DNA of 45,268 nt from Geobacteraceae bacterium (lineage in GTDB: Bacteria; Desulfobacterota; Desulfuromonadia; Geobacterales; DSM-12255): the NCBI GenBank assembly GCA_013377075.1, contig JACABD010000022.1, positions 8,678 to 53,945 of the forward strand, read 5' to 3'. Position numbers and translations under genes: made by a program. This document shows, piece by piece, positions 3,260-26,169 of the stretch. The notes under the pieces were generated by a model. The model saw nothing but the letters and a program-made list of their open reading frames with translations, had not been told where the DNA came from and did no database searches. Position 1 is the stretch's first letter; each line of letters opens with the position of its first letter.

Positions 3260-4147
3260 ATGCCTACTCGTAAGAGGCTTGGTGAAATTTTCGTTGAGCA
3301 GGGGATTATCAGCGCAAAGACCGTTGAGCGGATTCTTTGCCGGTCAAAACTGCTCAATCAGCGTTTCGGCACAGTGCTGGAAGATATGGAACTCGTCACT
3401 GGCGAAGAGCTTGCAGCCGCCCTCGGAATTCAGTACGGCTTCAAAACAGTGTCAAATCTCCTGAATTATGCTTATCCACCGGAAGTCCTCCGGATCATTC
3501 CGGAAGAAGTTTGCATAGAGCAGATTCTCTTTCCGCTTCGCCTGGAACAGAGCAAACTCGCCCTTGCCATGGCCGACCCCACTGACACCAGGATTGTTAA
3601 TAACATCGCCGAAAACAACGGCCTGACGATTACCCCTTACATAGCATCCAGAACTGAAATTTTCAGCGCGATATGCAAGTTCTATCTGGGAAGAGAATAC
3701 GTGCCATCAGGTATTGATACCGTGCTGGTCGTTGATGACGACCCGATCACACTTGACATGATCACCAACATCCTCAGTAAAAACGGCTATCGGGTAATTA
3801 CTGCAACTAACGGCATGGAGGGGTTCAAGTCTGTTATTGCCGAAAAACCGCAGGTGGTCATTACCGATATGGTTATGCCCAAACTTGATGGTTACGGTCT
3901 TTTAAGCGCCTTGCAAAACCTCCCGGAAATGATGTTCACTCCGGTGATCCTCATCAGCGCAGTGGCTCATGAAGATGAAGAGTCCAGTGCCTTCAAAAAG
4001 GGATTTTTCGATTTCATGACAAAGCCGGTGAATGAAATCACTCTCCTCATCCGGGTTAAACGCGCTTTCATCTTCCAGAAACACCACTACCGGTTCGAGC
4101 ATGAACCTGATGACCATAACAGACCAGCTGACATACACGATCAATAA
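3260..4147 (+). CDS. MshEN-domain response regulator (GspE N-terminal domain plus receiver)
   Basis: This 295-residue protein joins two domains. Residues 5-145 are an MshEN (GspE/PilB N-terminal) domain: RLGEIFVEQGIIS starts the first motif, a second FGTVL...ELVT...LAAALGIQYG motif follows, then the typical LALAMADPTD segment. In the MshE/PilB family such domains can bind cyclic di-GMP; here that is an inference because some consensus positions differ (for example S for the final Q of motif one). Residues 152-275 are a receiver: VVDDD acidic pocket at about 156-158, phospho-acceptor D203 in VVITDMVMP, ILISA, and TKPV with the conserved Lys. There is no output domain. It is the first gene of a block with a HEAT protein, an HD-GYP-like protein and a PilB-like ATPase, so it probably conveys a phosphorylation signal to them. 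Confidence 0.85.
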   Translation: MPTRKRLGEIFVEQGIISAKTVERILCRSKLLNQRFGTVLEDMELVTGEELAAALGIQYGFKTVSNLLNYAYPPEVLRIIPEEVCIEQILFPLRLEQSKLALAMADPTDTRIVNNIAENNGLTITPYIASRTEIFSAICKFYLGREYVPSGIDTVLVVDDDPITLDMITNILSKNGYRVITATNGMEGFKSVIAEKPQVVITDMVMPKLDGYGLLSALQNLPEMMFTPVILISAVAHEDEESSAFKKGFFDFMTKPVNEITLLIRVKRAFIFQKHHYRFEHEPDDHNRPADIHDQ

Positions 4148-4181
4148 CCGACAAGAAATGAATAAGCTGTAGGGAGCTGCT

Positions 4182-6347
4182 GTGATCCTTGCCCCCAATG
4201 ACAAATCAAGTTCCGCCATCAACATGGAGCTTTTAACGCAAGGTCTGATGGAATTCAGTCTTTTGCGCCGCTATGTGAACATATACCCCAGGCAGCACCC
4301 CAGCATCGCCCCTGGTGCTCGCAAGGTCATCGATATCTTCAACAGGATAGCTACAGAGTCCGGGGCTCTAACCATCGGCATTGCCATGGACGAACTTCTC
4401 ATTGCCGACTCCCCTCTCGAAAGGAAGAACCCGGTCTTTCAGGATGTGGCGAAATCCCTCTTCGCACACAAAATTGCTGCAGTTACAATTTCACCGGAGA
4501 TTGAAGTCAATGAGCTGCTTGCGTTTGTTGACATAATTAATACCTCTCCGGAAAAAATTGCCGGGGAGGGAGGCATTGCCCGGGCTGTTGCCGCCGCCAA
4601 CATCCGATCTATTCAGATAACCGAAATTGACTATGGCGCATTTAGATTGACTGAGGATGAGACAGTCGCCCTGGAAAGCTCTATCCCCGTAAAACGCTCT
4701 GCCTCACTGCTCTGGGAGAAATTTGTCCGGGGAATCCTCAATGATGTTCTTGACCCGCAGGGGAGTCCGTCCGTCACCTATTCCAGAGTGGCTCCTGCCA
4801 TGCTGGCAGAAATAATCAACCGGATGCAGAGTGAAACTGCCAATGGACGATCTCTCAGTTATGCCCAGGCCATAGTCCACTTTATACGTAAAGCCAAGCG
4901 GGATGGCGATGGAATCGAAAAAATAATCCAGTTCATCAATCATCTGAATCCTGAGATGCGTAAGGAATTCCTTGTCAGCACACTGGAAGCGCTCAAAGAT
5001 GACAGGAAACTGGCCGGTCAGCTTCTGGCAGAGTTGACGAGCGACGCCATCTTTGATGCACTGGTTGAAATGAACAACCGTGGAGAGACAATCTCCCCGT
5101 ATCTGCGAGCCCTTATGGAACGGCTCTCCACACTTGGCGTCAGCAAGGAGGTAATCTCGACGGCAAGTGAAAGAGGTGACTATAGCCGGACCGATCTGGC
5201 TGACAAGTTGAAAACTATTCTCAAGGATGATCAGGTGGAACTGTTTCTGCCTGTTGACTATGAGGCGCTGATTCGCTCAATCCTCTCTTCCGGGCAGATT
5301 TCGGTGGAAGAGATGGCAGAGAGGGAGCTGTTGCTCTCCAGCATGGCCGGCCATCCTCTTGAGCTCCAGATGAATGCTGTCATTCTCGATCTGCTTGAAC
5401 ACCCCTCCGGTGAAGATCGTCCTGAGGTATTGAAACAACACATCATTGACATGTTGTCATATTTCCTCGGCACCGGAGATTTTACGGCCCTCTGCGGCAT
5501 CCATGAACGACTGACCTGCAATATTGAAAACCAGGCTTTCAGGCATGACCTTCTTGGCTTCTTTGCCACGCCGGACTTCATTAATGAAGTTCTGAGCAGT
5601 GTCTCCATCTGGGGCAAGGCTAAATACGACGACATCAAGTCCCTGATCAGCCGGGTGGGAACCCCGTTCCTTATTCCCACTCTGGACAGACTGGCAGAAG
5701 AAGAGAGTATGTCCCTGCGGCGCTTCTATATGGAAAGATTGCGTGAGTTTGGCGAAAGAGCGATTGAACCGACTGTTGCCCGCCTGCGTGATGATCGCTG
5801 GTATGTGGTCCGAAATATGCTGGTGCTTTTGCGGACTCTGGAGGCGACCCAGACAGTAAGCCAACTGCGCAGACTGCTGACACACCCAAACTCGCGGGTA
5901 CATCAAGAGGCGCTCCGCACTCTGATTTATTTTCAGGATCCTGAAGCGGACCGGCAACTTCTCCAGGATCTAAATAGCGACAACCACGACGTCCAGTTCG
6001 CCTCCCTGCAATTGGCAGATACCAGCAAGAGCCCGCAGGTGCAGGCCAGGCTGCTGGAGCTGTTAAAAACCAGCGGCGACTTTACGCTGAGGATCGCCAC
6101 CCTCCACCCTCTTGCAGCTATTGGCAATCCGATGATCCTGCCGGAACTGTGGCAACTACTCAAAACCGGCAGCATCCTGCATCCAATCATGATGCACAAT
6201 TTGAAGCTGGAGATTGTCCGCTCGCTGGAACGCTATCCGGCGCTTCCGGCCGGCAAACTGCTTGAGAATATTCCGGAGATTGGCGACAGGGAACTCACCT
6301 TACTGGCAGCTGAAATTACCGGCAAACTTCAGACGAGACGCCCATGA
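4182..6347 (+). CDS. HEAT-repeat protein with an N-terminal domain shared with the next gene
   Basis: This 721-residue soluble protein has no signal peptide. It starts at GTG, with AGGGAG (4171-4176) a few bases upstream. Residues 15-130 form a domain that recurs at the N-terminus of the next gene product: both have a Y-x(n)-HP pair, an I-x-x-DEL-x-x-A-x-x-P core and a conserved segment ending in an Ile-rich helix. The centre is alpha-helical and unrecognised. The C-terminal third (about 485-700) is a run of HEAT/PBS-like repeats, for example ATVSQLRRLL, SRVHQEALRTL and DVQFASLQLAD, which normally serve as protein-binding scaffolds. The stop overlaps the next start by 4 bp (ATGA), implying translational coupling. 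Enzymatic activity is not apparent; a scaffold or adaptor role is an inference. Confidence 0.75.
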   Translation: MILAPNDKSSSAINMELLTQGLMEFSLLRRYVNIYPRQHPSIAPGARKVIDIFNRIATESGALTIGIAMDELLIADSPLERKNPVFQDVAKSLFAHKIAAVTISPEIEVNELLAFVDIINTSPEKIAGEGGIARAVAAANIRSIQITEIDYGAFRLTEDETVALESSIPVKRSASLLWEKFVRGILNDVLDPQGSPSVTYSRVAPAMLAEIINRMQSETANGRSLSYAQAIVHFIRKAKRDGDGIEKIIQFINHLNPEMRKEFLVSTLEALKDDRKLAGQLLAELTSDAIFDALVEMNNRGETISPYLRALMERLSTLGVSKEVISTASERGDYSRTDLADKLKTILKDDQVELFLPVDYEALIRSILSSGQISVEEMAERELLLSSMAGHPLELQMNAVILDLLEHPSGEDRPEVLKQHIIDMLSYFLGTGDFTALCGIHERLTCNIENQAFRHDLLGFFATPDFINEVLSSVSIWGKAKYDDIKSLISRVGTPFLIPTLDRLAEEESMSLRRFYMERLREFGERAIEPTVARLRDDRWYVVRNMLVLLRTLEATQTVSQLRRLLTHPNSRVHQEALRTLIYFQDPEADRQLLQDLNSDNHDVQFASLQLADTSKSPQVQARLLELLKTSGDFTLRIATLHPLAAIGNPMILPELWQLLKTGSILHPIMMHNLKLEIVRSLERYPALPAGKLLENIPEIGDRELTLLAAEITGKLQTRRP

Positions 6348-7468
6348 ACAGGATTCAGACCGACACACAACATGAGATTGTCCGCCAGCTGGTAATGGCA
6401 GCATCAACAGCTGCACTCTATGCAATTGATCACCCTCAGGTCATCAGGCTTTGCAACGCAGCCCATTCAAGCATCAAGGCTGCCATGGGGAGCGAAGCCG
6501 AAATTGTCATGCTTGCCATCGGCGATGAATTGATTATGGCAGAAATCCCCATGAAAGGGAGCTACTACAGCGAGAAGCTTGCCCGCCTGCTAAAGGCACG
6601 CGGCATTGGCCATCTGAAAATATTGCAGCCGGTTACCCTTGCCGAAATCCGCCAGCTGATAGTTACCATCTCCAGGGTAAGACCAGGCGGAGTTGATGCC
6701 CGTTCCAGTGAGAATATTCGCTATGGCACGGTTGAGGTCCGTCATAGTGATGTGACTGGCCGGGATATAGCCGGTTTTGAAGATCTGCTGGAAGACGAAC
6801 TGGCAACTCTCGTCAATACCTTTGAGCGGATTGCCGAGCGCCAACCTTTTGAGGTTTCAGGAATAACAAGCATTGTCTCCGGCTTTGTCGGTGCTATCCG
6901 CAACAACTTCAATCCGCTCCTCGCCCTGGTTCCGCTACGGCAAATGGATGAGTATACCTTTACCCACTCCCTAGATGTTTGCGTACTCAACCTTGTTCAG
7001 GGGATGTCGCTTGGTATCGAAGGACAACTCCTGACAGAAATCGGTCTGGCAGGGATGCTCCATGACGTGGGTAAAATCTTCATGAATGCCAGCATCCTCA
7101 ACAAACCGGCAAAACTTGATGACGCCGAGATGGCGCATATGCAACAACACCCCCGCCGCGGCGCCGAATACCTGCTCAGTTGCCCCGGCATACCGCGATT
7201 AGCGGTTCTCAGTTCATTCGAACATCACATGCAATACAGTCTGGCCGGTTACCCCTCCATGCATTCCGACTGGCAACTGGCTCTCCCCAGCCAGATGACC
7301 ATGATTTCCGACATCTTTGATGCCTTGCGTACCCGGCGGGTCTATCAGACTCCAAAAGATTTCGAACGGATTGAAAGCTTGTTGCTGGAAAAAGCCGGTG
7401 TCGAACTAAACCCGTCGCTTACCAGAAACTTCCTTAAAGTCATGAAGCGGCTGTCAGTAGAGCTTTGA
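6344..7468 (+). CDS. HD-GYP-like phosphodiesterase domain protein
   Basis: This 374-residue protein begins with the same domain as the upstream HEAT protein (residues 8-115, with HP near 25 and IGDELIMAEIP). The C-terminal half is an HD domain of the HD-GYP type. It has MLHDVGKI with H240/D241, then ILNKPAKL, MQQHPRRGAEYLL, FEHH at 292-295 and a later AGYP. Canonical HD-GYP proteins read HHE-x-x-D-G-x-GYP; here the Glu is replaced by Met and the DG pair is absent, although GYP is kept. Cyclic di-GMP hydrolysis is therefore plausible but not assured. It overlaps the previous gene by 4 bp. A cytosolic metal-dependent phosphohydrolase acting with the neighbouring MshEN proteins is the most likely role. 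Confidence 0.8.
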   Translation: MNRIQTDTQHEIVRQLVMAASTAALYAIDHPQVIRLCNAAHSSIKAAMGSEAEIVMLAIGDELIMAEIPMKGSYYSEKLARLLKARGIGHLKILQPVTLAEIRQLIVTISRVRPGGVDARSSENIRYGTVEVRHSDVTGRDIAGFEDLLEDELATLVNTFERIAERQPFEVSGITSIVSGFVGAIRNNFNPLLALVPLRQMDEYTFTHSLDVCVLNLVQGMSLGIEGQLLTEIGLAGMLHDVGKIFMNASILNKPAKLDDAEMAHMQQHPRRGAEYLLSCPGIPRLAVLSSFEHHMQYSLAGYPSMHSDWQLALPSQMTMISDIFDALRTRRVYQTPKDFERIESLLLEKAGVELNPSLTRNFLKVMKRLSVEL

Positions 7469-7573
7469 CAAACCTGAAACAGCTGGATTTCGTTTCACAA
7501 TTTTAGTCTGGACAGGTCAGAACCCACTTATTGCCAGATTCAATAGTCCAGAAACTGCTTACCAGAGGTTGTC

Positions 7574-9505
7574 ATGCCAGAAAAACGAATTGGTGAAATT
7601 CTTGTTGAAAACAGTAGGTTGACGCAGGAACAGTTTGCCACGGCTCTTGAAGTCCAGCAACAGACACCAAACATTCCTATCGGACAGATAATTTGCCAGC
7701 TCGGTTATTTGTCAGCAGAAGATATGAGTCTTGCCCTCGATATAAGCAAAAAGCGGCTCAACCTTGGGGATATTCTCGTTAAACAGAATCTGATTGATCA
7801 GGAAAAGCTGGAGAACGCCATAAATCTCAGCAAGAAGGATAATATTTCACTCGGCAGTGCTCTGGTAAAACAGCACATTATCAAGGAAGAGCAGTTGGCA
7901 CGGGCCATCTCCTCCCAGTACGACCTCCCCTATGTATCTCTTGACAAGTACATTCTGCCTGAAGAGCTGGGCAAATACTTCAGCGCCAGTTATGCCATGA
8001 AGCACCGGATTGTAGCCATTCAGAAGTGCCCTTGCAGCGTCACTGTTGCCATGGCATTTCCCCTTAGTCCCCACGTTCTGCACGAACTGGAAGAACTGAT
8101 CCATCTCACCATCAAACCGGTTATCGCCAGGGAGAGTGATATTTTCATGGCGCTGGAAAATATCTATGGTGTGCAGCGCAAGGCGCCAACCGCATCACAG
8201 GTTGATCCTGTTCAACTCGACATCATGGAGGATTTTTCTTCCGAAGAGCTCCGCTCCAAATACGTCCTCGACCACAACGTTGACTATATTGCAAAAAGGC
8301 TGATTTCTGTTGGCGTTCAGATTAATGCCAGTGATATCCATCTGGAGTTCACTGAATCCGGAGCCGATGTCCGCTTCAGGATCGACGGCGTCTTGCAGTC
8401 TATCGACATGGGAGGGGATTACCGGCTCATCATGACCCATGGCCGACCGCTGATCTCCAAAATAAAAATTCTCTGTGATATGGATATAACCGAAAAAAGA
8501 CGTCCCCAGAACGGCAGTTTCCGCGTCAAGATGACGGCTGGCAACTTCCCTAAGACCGTCGATTTCCGGGTCTCAACCGTCCCTACCAAATACGGTGAAA
8601 ACATGGTCATAAGGATTCTCGACCGCAAGGGACCGATGTCCTTGCAGACCCTGGGATTCAGTAATACAGTCAGTATTGAATTGGACAGACTCCTGGCCAA
8701 ACCGACCGGAATCTTTCTGGTTACCGGGCCGACAGGTTCCGGCAAGTCCTCGACCCTTTACTCCATCCTCGGAAGGCTAAACAGTCCGGGAGTGAAGACC
8801 ATGACGGTCGAAGACCCGATTGAATACACCATGGACGGTATCAGCCAATCGGAAGTCAATACGGCCATTGGCAATACCTTTGCTGAATACCTGCGAGCCT
8901 TCCTTCGCCAGGACCCTGACAACATCATGGTCGGTGAGATCAGGGACGTGGAAACGGCGATGATCTCCATCCGTGCATCCCTGACCGGCCATACTGTTCT
9001 TTCCACCCTGCATACCAATGACTCCACCGGCGTTGTCCCAAGGCTGCTGGACATGGGGGTAGATGCCACCCTGCTATCCTCAACCCTCCACTGTGTTATC
9101 TCTCAGCGGCTTGTCCGGATAAACTGCACCCACTGCCGAGAAGAGTACCAACCGAACGCGGAGATACTGGAAGAGTTCGGAGTTGCTTTGGGCTCCACGA
9201 GTCTATTCATCCACGGCAAGGGGTGCCCTAACTGCAACTGCACAGGTTTCAGCGGGAGGCTACCGATAGTGGAGATGTGGATTCCATCCCGTGAAGAGGC
9301 TCTGCTTATCAACAAACATGCAGAAAACCAGTTATTGCGTGAATCTGCTTTCATCAACGGGAATAATCTGACAATGTTGCAGGATGGCCTCGAAAGAGTG
9401 CTAAAGGGGGAGACGACTCTGGAAGAACTGGTCAGAGTCATCCCCTACGAACAGGTACTGGAGTATCGTCGTAAAATTGACATGGGGTTGGGCAAAAGGC
9501 TGTAA
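7574..9505 (+). CDS. PilB/GspE/MshE-type ATPase with tandem MshEN repeats
   Basis: This 643-residue hexameric-motor type ATPase belongs to the type II secretion / type IV pilus extension family. N-terminally there are two consecutive MshEN-like motif pairs: RIGEILVENSRLT (about 5), IGQIICQLGYLS (about 36), LGDILVKQNLID (about 58) and LGSALVKQHIIK (about 92). These are followed by the VAMAFPL segment. The ATPase part has Walker A GPTGSGKS at 385-392, an Asp box near 415-425 (VEDPIEY), Walker B IMVGEIRD near 453, a His box (GHTVLSTLHTND) and the tetra-cysteine zinc site CTHC...CPNC typical of PilB/GspE. All catalytic motifs look intact. No pilin, PilC or secretin gene accompanies it in the window, so it may serve a machine encoded elsewhere. 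Cyclic di-GMP control is inferred from the MshEN domains and the adjacent HD-GYP gene. Confidence 0.9.
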   Translation: MPEKRIGEILVENSRLTQEQFATALEVQQQTPNIPIGQIICQLGYLSAEDMSLALDISKKRLNLGDILVKQNLIDQEKLENAINLSKKDNISLGSALVKQHIIKEEQLARAISSQYDLPYVSLDKYILPEELGKYFSASYAMKHRIVAIQKCPCSVTVAMAFPLSPHVLHELEELIHLTIKPVIARESDIFMALENIYGVQRKAPTASQVDPVQLDIMEDFSSEELRSKYVLDHNVDYIAKRLISVGVQINASDIHLEFTESGADVRFRIDGVLQSIDMGGDYRLIMTHGRPLISKIKILCDMDITEKRRPQNGSFRVKMTAGNFPKTVDFRVSTVPTKYGENMVIRILDRKGPMSLQTLGFSNTVSIELDRLLAKPTGIFLVTGPTGSGKSSTLYSILGRLNSPGVKTMTVEDPIEYTMDGISQSEVNTAIGNTFAEYLRAFLRQDPDNIMVGEIRDVETAMISIRASLTGHTVLSTLHTNDSTGVVPRLLDMGVDATLLSSTLHCVISQRLVRINCTHCREEYQPNAEILEEFGVALGSTSLFIHGKGCPNCNCTGFSGRLPIVEMWIPSREEALLINKHAENQLLRESAFINGNNLTMLQDGLERVLKGETTLEELVRVIPYEQVLEYRRKIDMGLGKRL

Positions 9506-24263: not shown

Positions 24264-25127
24264 TCAAAGGTACTTTCCAACAATTACATCAAGATCAGCC
24301 TTTGCCTTCTCAGGGATCGTTTTCCTGTCTGTTATGACCGCATACTGCATTGCTGTTGCGCAGGGGCAGGATCTCTCCGCAGCTATGCCACTTACAGCAT
24401 GACGAATGATGTTTTTCGCCATGGCGACATTCTGGTGGATAATCTTGATGATAGCCTCCACCGTCACATCTTCATGGGAATTGTGCCAGCAGTCGTAATC
24501 TGTCGAAAGGGCAATGATTCCGTAGCAGATCTCCGCTTCCCTCGCAAGTTTGGCTTCAGTCAGGTTGGTCATGCCGATAATCGAGGCATCAAGTCCCCTG
24601 TACATGAGCGACTCCGCCCGTGTGGAGAACGCCGGACCTTCCATGCAGATGTAGGTTCCACCACGGTGAACAGTTGCACCGGCGCTCTTTGCGGCACTCT
24701 CTAGCCTGTCGGAGAGGCTGGCGCAGACAGGATCGGCAAAGCCTGCATGGGCAACAACACCATTGCCGAAAAAGGTATCTTTCCTGACCCCTTTTGTCCG
24801 GTCGATGAACTGGTCGGGGATGACGATATGTCCGGGGACAATCTCTTCTTTAAGGCTGCCAACCGCAGAGACAGAGATTATCTGCTCGACACCGAGCTTT
24901 TTCATACCGTAGATATTTGCACGATAATTTACTTCCGATGGCAAGAAGCGGTGCCCACGGCCATGGCGGGGTAGAAATACCATCTTCACTCCGTTCAGAG
25001 TCCCGGTTATAAAGAGATCTGAAGGGTCACCAAAAGGTGTTGACACAACCTCCTCATTCACATCTGTAAGCCCCTCCATCTCGTACAGTCCACTGCCGCC
25101 GATAACTCCGATTACCTTTTCAGACAT
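24264..25127 (-). CDS. mtnP: S-methyl-5'-thioadenosine phosphorylase
   Basis: This 287-residue PNP-family enzyme splits methylthioadenosine, the by-product of polyamine and related SAM reactions, into adenine and methylthioribose-1-phosphate for methionine salvage. Landmarks are [15 protein letters not shown] at the N-terminus, [53 protein letters not shown] and [31 protein letters not shown], all in family order. The last motif (DYDCWH) favours MTA phosphorylase over purine nucleoside phosphorylase. The start overlaps the end of rlmN by 8 bp, with GAGGTGG upstream, so the two genes are translationally linked. Confidence 0.95.
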
Positions 25128-26169
25128 CTTCCACCTCGTTAATTAATTTGAGCTTATCAAGTTTTCCTTTCAGCTGACCGCAGGCAGCAGAGATTTCGCC
25201 ACCACGACTGCTTCTGGTTATGACCGTCACGTTGCGATCAATTAGATATTTGTGAAATGCGTCTACAGCCGCTTGCGTCGGGCTTTTGAAGCCAGCCCCC
25301 TCATGCTCGTTGAACGGGATCAGATTCACCTTATTGGGAATGTCGCTGGTTAGTTTCAGCAGCCTTTTTGCATCTTCCAGCGAATCGTTAAGACCACCTA
25401 TCAGGACATATTCAATGGTGATCTTGCGACTGGAGGGGAGCGGAAACTCACGACAGGCCTTGAGCAGCTCTTTCAGCGGATATTTACGATTGATCGGCAT
25501 AATCTGGCTGCGCAGCTCGTCCGTTGTGGCATTAAGCGATACGGCCAGGTTGACAGTAACCCGCCTGCCAAGCTCAGCCATCTGCGGAACAAGACCGCAA
25601 GTGGAGACCGTGATCCTCCGGTTTGAAAGCTGCAATCCGTTGCCATTGAGCATGATCTCGATAGCCCGGACGAGGTTGTCCAGATTTTGTAGCGGCTCAC
25701 CCATCCCCATGAAGACGATGTTGCGGATCTCTGCGTCTTTTTTTGCAGCACAGACCTGATTGATTATCTCAGCTGTAGTCAGGTTGCGCTTGAGCTTGAA
25801 GGTTCCGGTAAGGCAGAATTCACACCCCATGGCACACCCCACCTGTGTTGAGACACAGAGGGTGTTTCTCCCCTCGTCAGGGATCAGAACCGATTCGACA
25901 GCCTCCCCGTCTTCGAGAGTAAAGAGATATTTCCTGACGCCGTCACTCCCCTCTTCCACGGTAGCTGCCGTAAATTCGCTGATGCAGGCCGTGGCTTCGA
26001 GTTCGGCGCGAAAATCCTTGGAGAGATTGGTCATCTGTTCAAAGGAAGTCGCCCCCAACTGGTAGATCCATTTGAATATCTGTGTGGCACGGAACCGCTC
26101 TTTCCCCTTGCCGGAAAGAAACTGCTCAAGTTCCTGCAAATTAAAGTTTTTAAGGTCTGTTTTTGGCAT
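25120..26169 (-). CDS. rlmN: Dual-specificity rRNA/tRNA adenine-C2 methyltransferase RlmN
   Basis: This 349-residue radical SAM enzyme methylates A2503 of 23S rRNA and A37 of some tRNAs. The [4Fe-4S] motif C112-x3-C116-x2-C119 lies in [12 protein letters not shown]. The resolving Cys in [13 protein letters not shown] is at about 330, and GMGEPL, STCGL and the C-terminal GGLNDS are present. Length is typical. GAGGAG lies just upstream of ATG. In many gammaproteobacteria rlmN is co-directional with pilF and rodZ; here it is adjacent but divergently transcribed from a pilF-like/rodZ pair, with mtnP downstream. Confidence 0.97.

Follow-up and report, generated by a model that had tools for sequence, protein, structure and literature searches.

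A HEAT-repeat protein and a divergent HD-GYP protein with a common N-terminal domain form a conserved gene pair beside an MshEN motor gene in a Geobacteraceae genome

The systems closest to the locus described here are the HD-GYP phosphodiesterases and the proteins with MshEN domains. In the HD-GYP family, the residue set H...HD...H...HH...D provides the ligands of the dinuclear site, and a review gives the rule that dinuclear enzymes carry out one-step hydrolysis (PMC8177086). The inactive family member Bd1817 is without the Tyr of the GYP triad and the last Asp (PMC8177086). The MshEN domain contains the consensus RLGxx(L)(V/I)xxG(I/F)(L/V)xxxxLxxxLxxQ twice, and Bd2402 of Bdellovibrio, an MshEN response regulator, binds c-di-GMP (PMC5013675). 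We took Arg at the first and Gln at the last position of both 24-residue motifs as the criterion of c-di-GMP binding (PMC5013675, PMC12002112). In the GSPII-A domain of PilF, restoring Ser at the position of the motif-II Arg abolishes binding in spite of both Gln residues being present (PMC12002112).

We analysed a window of 45,268 nucleotides from a Geobacteraceae bacterium, in which a sequence-only reading had suggested a four-gene circuit with phosphorylation and c-di-GMP jointly setting the activity of a motor ATPase. The four open reading frames, A to D, were found where that reading had placed them, all on the plus strand, and Pfam bore out its domain calls: MshEN-receiver for A, HEAT for B, a divergent HD-GYP for C and MshEN-T2SSE for D (Table 1). 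The intergenic gaps are 34 bp (A-B), -4 bp (B-C) and 105 bp (C-D). Given the common strand, these gaps and the lack of a plus-strand terminator-like site between the genes, a single transcript across A to D is plausible. No riboswitch (GEMM or other Rfam family) was detected in the window at Rfam cut-offs. The locus was also considered as a defence system, for which PADLOC gave weak partial matches only. Upstream of gene A, at a distance of 367 bp, an open reading frame at 784-2892 fuses TPR repeats to a class I methyltransferase.

Table 1. Features of the window and of related loci in the same genome (window positions unless a contig is named; domain limits in residues).
Feature	Position	Strand	Assignment and layout
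Gene A	3260..4147	+	Pfam MshEN 5.7e-15 and Response_reg 1e-23; MshEN motifs 6-29 and 35-58, MshEN_C 67-145, receiver 155-266
Gene B	4182..6347	+	721 aa; Pfam HEAT_2 8e-14; N-terminal domain ~14-152, helical linker, HEAT solenoid ~430-715
N-domain copy 1 (in B)	4221..4637	+	Alpha/beta; conserved Tyr and His-Pro
Gene C	6344..7468	+	Pfam HD_5/HD 1e-10; divergent HD-GYP; N-domain ~9-131, HD-GYP ~200-370; ATG overlaps stop of B by 4 bp
N-domain copy 2 (in C)	6368..6736	+	C residues ~9-131
Gene D	7574..9505	+	Pfam T2SSE 6e-109 and MshEN 5.7e-15; four tandem MshEN_N motifs 5-115, MshEN_C 116-202, PilB/GspE-type ATPase 241-621
Empty syntenic site of D	24267..26169	-	MTAP-like (24267-25127) and RlmN-like (25123-26169) genes abut
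B'-C' pair (locus L084)	contig C2, 6898-9932		Neighbours: RadA-like, small HEAT protein, FabH-like
Third pair, B''-C'' (locus L085)	contig C94, 9250-12391		Very divergent; same N-terminal domains; weak OmpA-like protein before pair
L086 block	contig C13, 6859-12678	co-directional	Receiver protein, Ras/Arf-like small GTPase, histidine kinase, receiver-MshEN-T2SSE ATPase (806 aa), receiver-HD-GYP

With moderate confidence, we favour the reading that the biological unit at this locus is the B-C pair, in which B would control or position C, a putative cyclic-dinucleotide phosphodiesterase, and that the motor D is probably not gated by c-di-GMP. Orthologues of C were present in 28 of 58 sampled relatives (E < 1e-50), plus one broken copy, and in each of the 26 relatives' loci for which we read the neighbourhood, B lay immediately upstream of C. 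Counted by C, the pair is present in 72 of the 141 genomes of the order; it also occurs in Nitrospirota and is spread through many soil and sediment bacteria. We further examined 80 loci from named genomes (Geobacter, Desulfuromonadales, Syntrophus, Syntrophorhabdus, Nitrospirota and others), of which 71 passed a strict rule of B-C adjacency, i.e. 70 loci and L180, where another ATPase is also nearby. The remaining nine were at contig ends (five loci) or had overlapping, split or shortened gene calls (four loci, among them L237), and C or a fragment of it was visible in them wherever sequence remains. The idea that all four genes form one conserved unit was not borne out, as they were not found together in the 26 relatives' loci or in the 80 named-genome loci. 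Recurrence of the four genes in relatives had been set beforehand as a check on this idea; A stood beside the pair in one of the 26 relatives and D in none, and neither A nor D adjoined B-C at any of the 80 named-genome loci.

The pair is not obligate. Among the best 150 matches to the N-terminal domain, 108 had a same-strand partner 1.5-2.3 kb away, and of 20 sampled single matches 13 had a partner too, while six were B without C and one was C without B. B-type genes (N-domain plus HEAT) with no adjoining C were seen at six loci in several Desulfobacterota genomes. We also looked at the operon mates for a hint of the target of B-C; they were mostly housekeeping genes (ClpB, citramalate-synthase-like, DEAD helicase, MetRS), with the exception of a GGDEF gene. 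The ClpB-type AAA+ chaperone (~870 aa) is located just downstream of B-C in several genera (five named loci and others).

The sequence-only reading had also proposed that the HEAT and HD proteins share a domain, and this proved sound. In the Pfam scan of B, the N-terminal third contained no known domain. Compared by hhalign, the N-terminal profiles of B and C aligned with 98.7% probability (E 2.3e-15), against 0-0.5% in four control pairings, and the profiles of the paralogous B'/C' pair aligned as well (E 9e-15). Judged by these profiles, the homology of the two domains over ~130 residues is real. In the AlphaFold models of B and C, the elements of the domain follow in the same order (two long helices, strands, helix, strand, helix). 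Its Tyr is invariant, and the His four residues later, usually followed by Pro, is nearly so. Where read, the domain fronts only HEAT repeats or HD-GYP. It has no family in Pfam or NCBIfam, where a single member of 40 gave a weak match, to Pop8, yet 120 of 297 genomes sampled across the phylum (~40%) contain it. Sequence matches in the PDB were to designed or repetitive proteins over short stretches and were taken as chance. Fold searches returned HD-GYP and HEAT relatives only; the HEAT solenoid of B, whose model helices have pLDDT > 90, matched alphaRep and PP2A-A. The deep tree of the domain was poorly resolved. In the papers searched, none joined HEAT, HD-GYP and Geobacter, and those with both HEAT repeat and HD-GYP look unrelated, as judged by title. 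What is new here is the pairing of B with C and the undescribed domain common to both, HD-GYP signalling being already known. The domain could be a dimerisation surface, and B would be a dedicated partner of C, the two proteins associating via their N-terminal domains. The HEAT solenoid of B may then recruit C to a target or gate its activity.

The HD-GYP-like domain reported for C is present with all its metal ligands: H208, H240, D241, H269, H294, H295 and D323 are invariant in 35 homologues, as is the GYP triad (G302, Y303, P304). The best solved relatives of C are the HD-GYP phosphodiesterases PmGH and V-cGAP3. Compared with PmGH (4MCW), PA4781 (4R8Z), V-cGAP3 (5Z7C) and PmxA, C keeps the fold, the H...HD...H...HH...D ligands and the GYP triad. 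However, it differs from them in having no DG before GYP and no Glu as the eighth ligand. The position of PmGH E185, the third-metal Glu, is taken by Tyr204, which is invariant. C is divergent for a phosphodiesterase of this family, reading HHMQYSLAGYP in place of the extended motif HHExxDGxGYP, with the DG missing throughout the C family. C also differs from the known enzymes in carrying the new N-terminal domain in place of a GAF, PAS or REC input, and in having an adjoining HEAT partner with the same domain. Residue Q297 is specific to the window and is K/R in near relatives. On this pattern, C is predicted to belong to the dinuclear subclass, and the predicted two-metal site would therefore yield a linear dinucleotide as the product.

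The loss of the DG and the replacement of the third-metal Glu by Tyr204 could also mean that C has lost the ability to hydrolyse cyclic dinucleotides, or uses another nucleotide, and that B-C is a structural or sensory module with HD-GYP as a binding domain, comparable to Bd1817, which was among the structural neighbours of C. We consider this unlikely, since none of the 35 divergent members departs from the seven dinuclear-site ligands or the GYP triad, and C, unlike the inactive Bd1817, retains both the GYP Tyr and the final Asp ligand. A further point against it is that a GGDEF enzyme adjoins the pair in six genomes.

Six genomes of two genera encode this GGDEF protein, with GGEEF and the Asp of GHxxGD intact, directly after C and on its strand. 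The Asp of GHxxGD is expected of c-di-GMP synthases (compare PleD with GacA). The adjacency of such a gene favours c-di-GMP as the substrate, and in our preferred view C probably has HD-GYP phosphodiesterase activity, most likely on c-di-GMP. The GGDEF proteins seen after C are ~400-420 aa long (eight loci), and the one that was scanned, in L173, has a Tll0287-like sensor. The pair could instead act on 3'3'-cGAMP, as relatives from Geobacter use Hypr cGAMP signalling (PMC6456294), V-cGAP3, which ranks second among the solved relatives of C, is specific for cGAMP, and VcMshEN binds cGAMP weakly (PMC5013675). This substrate appears improbable: the GHxxGD Asp is retained by the GGDEF enzymes that adjoin the pair in six genomes, and the window contains no GEMM or other Rfam riboswitch.

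The ATPase of D has the T2SSE domain with Walker A, Walker B and tetracysteine, but it scored below the equivalog cut-offs of both PilB (457.8 vs 675.65 bits) and GspE (447.0 vs 630.25 bits). The two MshEN-like repeat pairs ascribed to D are indeed there, as four tandem 24-residue motifs of the MshEN_N type, reading RIG...Q, PIG...S, NLG...S and SLG...Q. The key residues are thus R,Q / P,S in pair 1 and N,S / S,Q in pair 2, so that both pairs are without the motif-II Arg and each is one Gln short. PilB of the same genome, which is followed by a PilT-like ATPase and served as a positive control, reads RLG...Q twice (R,Q / R,Q). MshEN is often taken as a c-di-GMP receptor by name alone; the motifs of the D motor look unable to bind. 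D is probably not c-di-GMP-gated, and the opposite view, that D is a c-di-GMP-gated motor, was rejected on the comparison of the motifs with the PilF data and with the genome's own PilB. In comparison to the PilB/GspE/MshE and PilF assembly ATPases with multiple GSPII/MshEN domains, D likewise has the T2SSE core, Walker motifs, tetracysteine and tandem MshEN_N motifs followed by MshEN_C. It differs in its sub-cut-off scores, in the degenerate c-di-GMP residues and in having no recognised pilus genes adjoining it in the genomes seen. The motor was correctly noted to lack a pilin or secretin beside it: none was recognised by eye among the listed open reading frames of the window, the nearest seven of which were scanned against Pfam.

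The position of D is not conserved either. Orthologues of D occur in 26 of the 141 genomes of the order, and D adjoins the B-C pair in none of the 26 relatives' loci, only in the genome of the window. In nine relatives' neighbourhoods, no pilin, platform or secretin gene was recognised near D by cluster content or N-terminal sequences, and the genes beside it resemble MutS2, MTAP and RlmN among others. The D gene of the sister species G002 and G003 lies between MTAP-like and RlmN-like genes. In the window, D adjoins C, 15 kb from the site at which the MTAP-like and RlmN-like genes abut. That these two genes abut points to D having been lost or moved. G002 and G003 cluster together in the D tree (98%) to the exclusion of the D of the window, which sits on a long branch with weak support (60%). 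Either a foreign copy replaced the native D, or D moved and changed fast; in both cases the C-D junction would be recent and private to this genome. D would have arrived beside the pair in this genome only, and the motor is probably a chance neighbour of the pair there.

These results bear on the four-gene circuit, according to which A to D would be one operon, and phosphorylation of A together with turnover of c-di-GMP by C would set the D motor via MshEN. The common strand, the short gaps and the lack of plus-strand terminator-like sites speak for it, as do the MshEN folds in A and D and the phosphodiesterase fold in C. C was also present in 19 of the 26 genomes with D, against 13.3 expected (P 0.011 over the 141 genomes of the order, kinship not corrected for), somewhat above expectation, which may indicate a loose functional tie of D to the B-C pair. 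However, seven of the 26 have D without C, the arrangement was seen in no other genome, and D is native to another site, which is empty here. Moreover, both repeat pairs of D are without the key Arg/Gln combination, all four residues of which are kept in the PilT-linked PilB. Taken together, we regard the circuit as very doubtful. From the sequence-only reading, the domains, the shared domain, the receiver and the orphan motor remain, and the four-gene circuit is given up; its assumption of c-di-GMP binding by the MshEN domains likely fails for D and is left as a possibility for A.

The receiver of A (PF00072, E 1e-23) is the intact input it was said to be, with the phosphoacceptor D203 as well as S233 and K255 retained. 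Its MshEN motifs read RLG...S and RFG...Q, so that the key positions are R6 and S29, where Gln is lost, and R35 and Q58. Since three of the four key residues are present, A may bind c-di-GMP. A has the same MshEN plus receiver architecture as MshEN response regulators such as Bd2402, and an intact phosphoacceptor. It differs from them in that the first-motif Gln is replaced by Ser and the turn Gly of the second motif by Glu, and any binding of c-di-GMP or cGAMP by A is expected to be weak. Within the 26 relatives' loci, A was upstream of B only in G002, a species of the same genus; with the genome of the window, this makes two species of the genus in which A has joined the pair. In these, A may add a phosphorylation-dependent, possibly c-di-GMP-responsive input to the pair.

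The genome of the window contains two further paralogous pairs, B'-C' and B''-C'', so the two genes were passed on or duplicated together. B' (~530 aa) and C' (~455 aa) have a fixed neighbourhood in many genomes of the order, including RadA-like and FabH-like genes. We tentatively propose, as a view that is well possible although we would not call it probable, that B and C are the first representatives of a two-protein system of wide distribution. In such a system, the HD-GYP phosphodiesterase and its HEAT regulator would assemble via an undescribed homologous N-terminal domain, and the coexisting paralogous pairs would act as insulated local sinks of cyclic dinucleotide, each steered by its own solenoid. 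Many cells possess dozens of c-di-GMP enzymes, and how they keep the signals apart is an open question. Three parallel pairs in one genome, each of a predicted phosphodiesterase and its own solenoid partner, would allow local signalling to be tested directly.

The same genome contains a different cluster, the L086 block, in which phosphorylation, an MshEN motor and HD-GYP are likewise found in one block. In contrast to the locus described above, it is a separate locus with the receivers fused to the other domains, and it comes much nearer to a motor circuit governed by phosphorylation and c-di-GMP. In two relatives (L180 and L237), a different MshEN-ATPase from D lies on the opposite strand ~560-970 bp beyond the B-C pair; an 807-aa ATPase of the L086 type is found close to the pair in these two.
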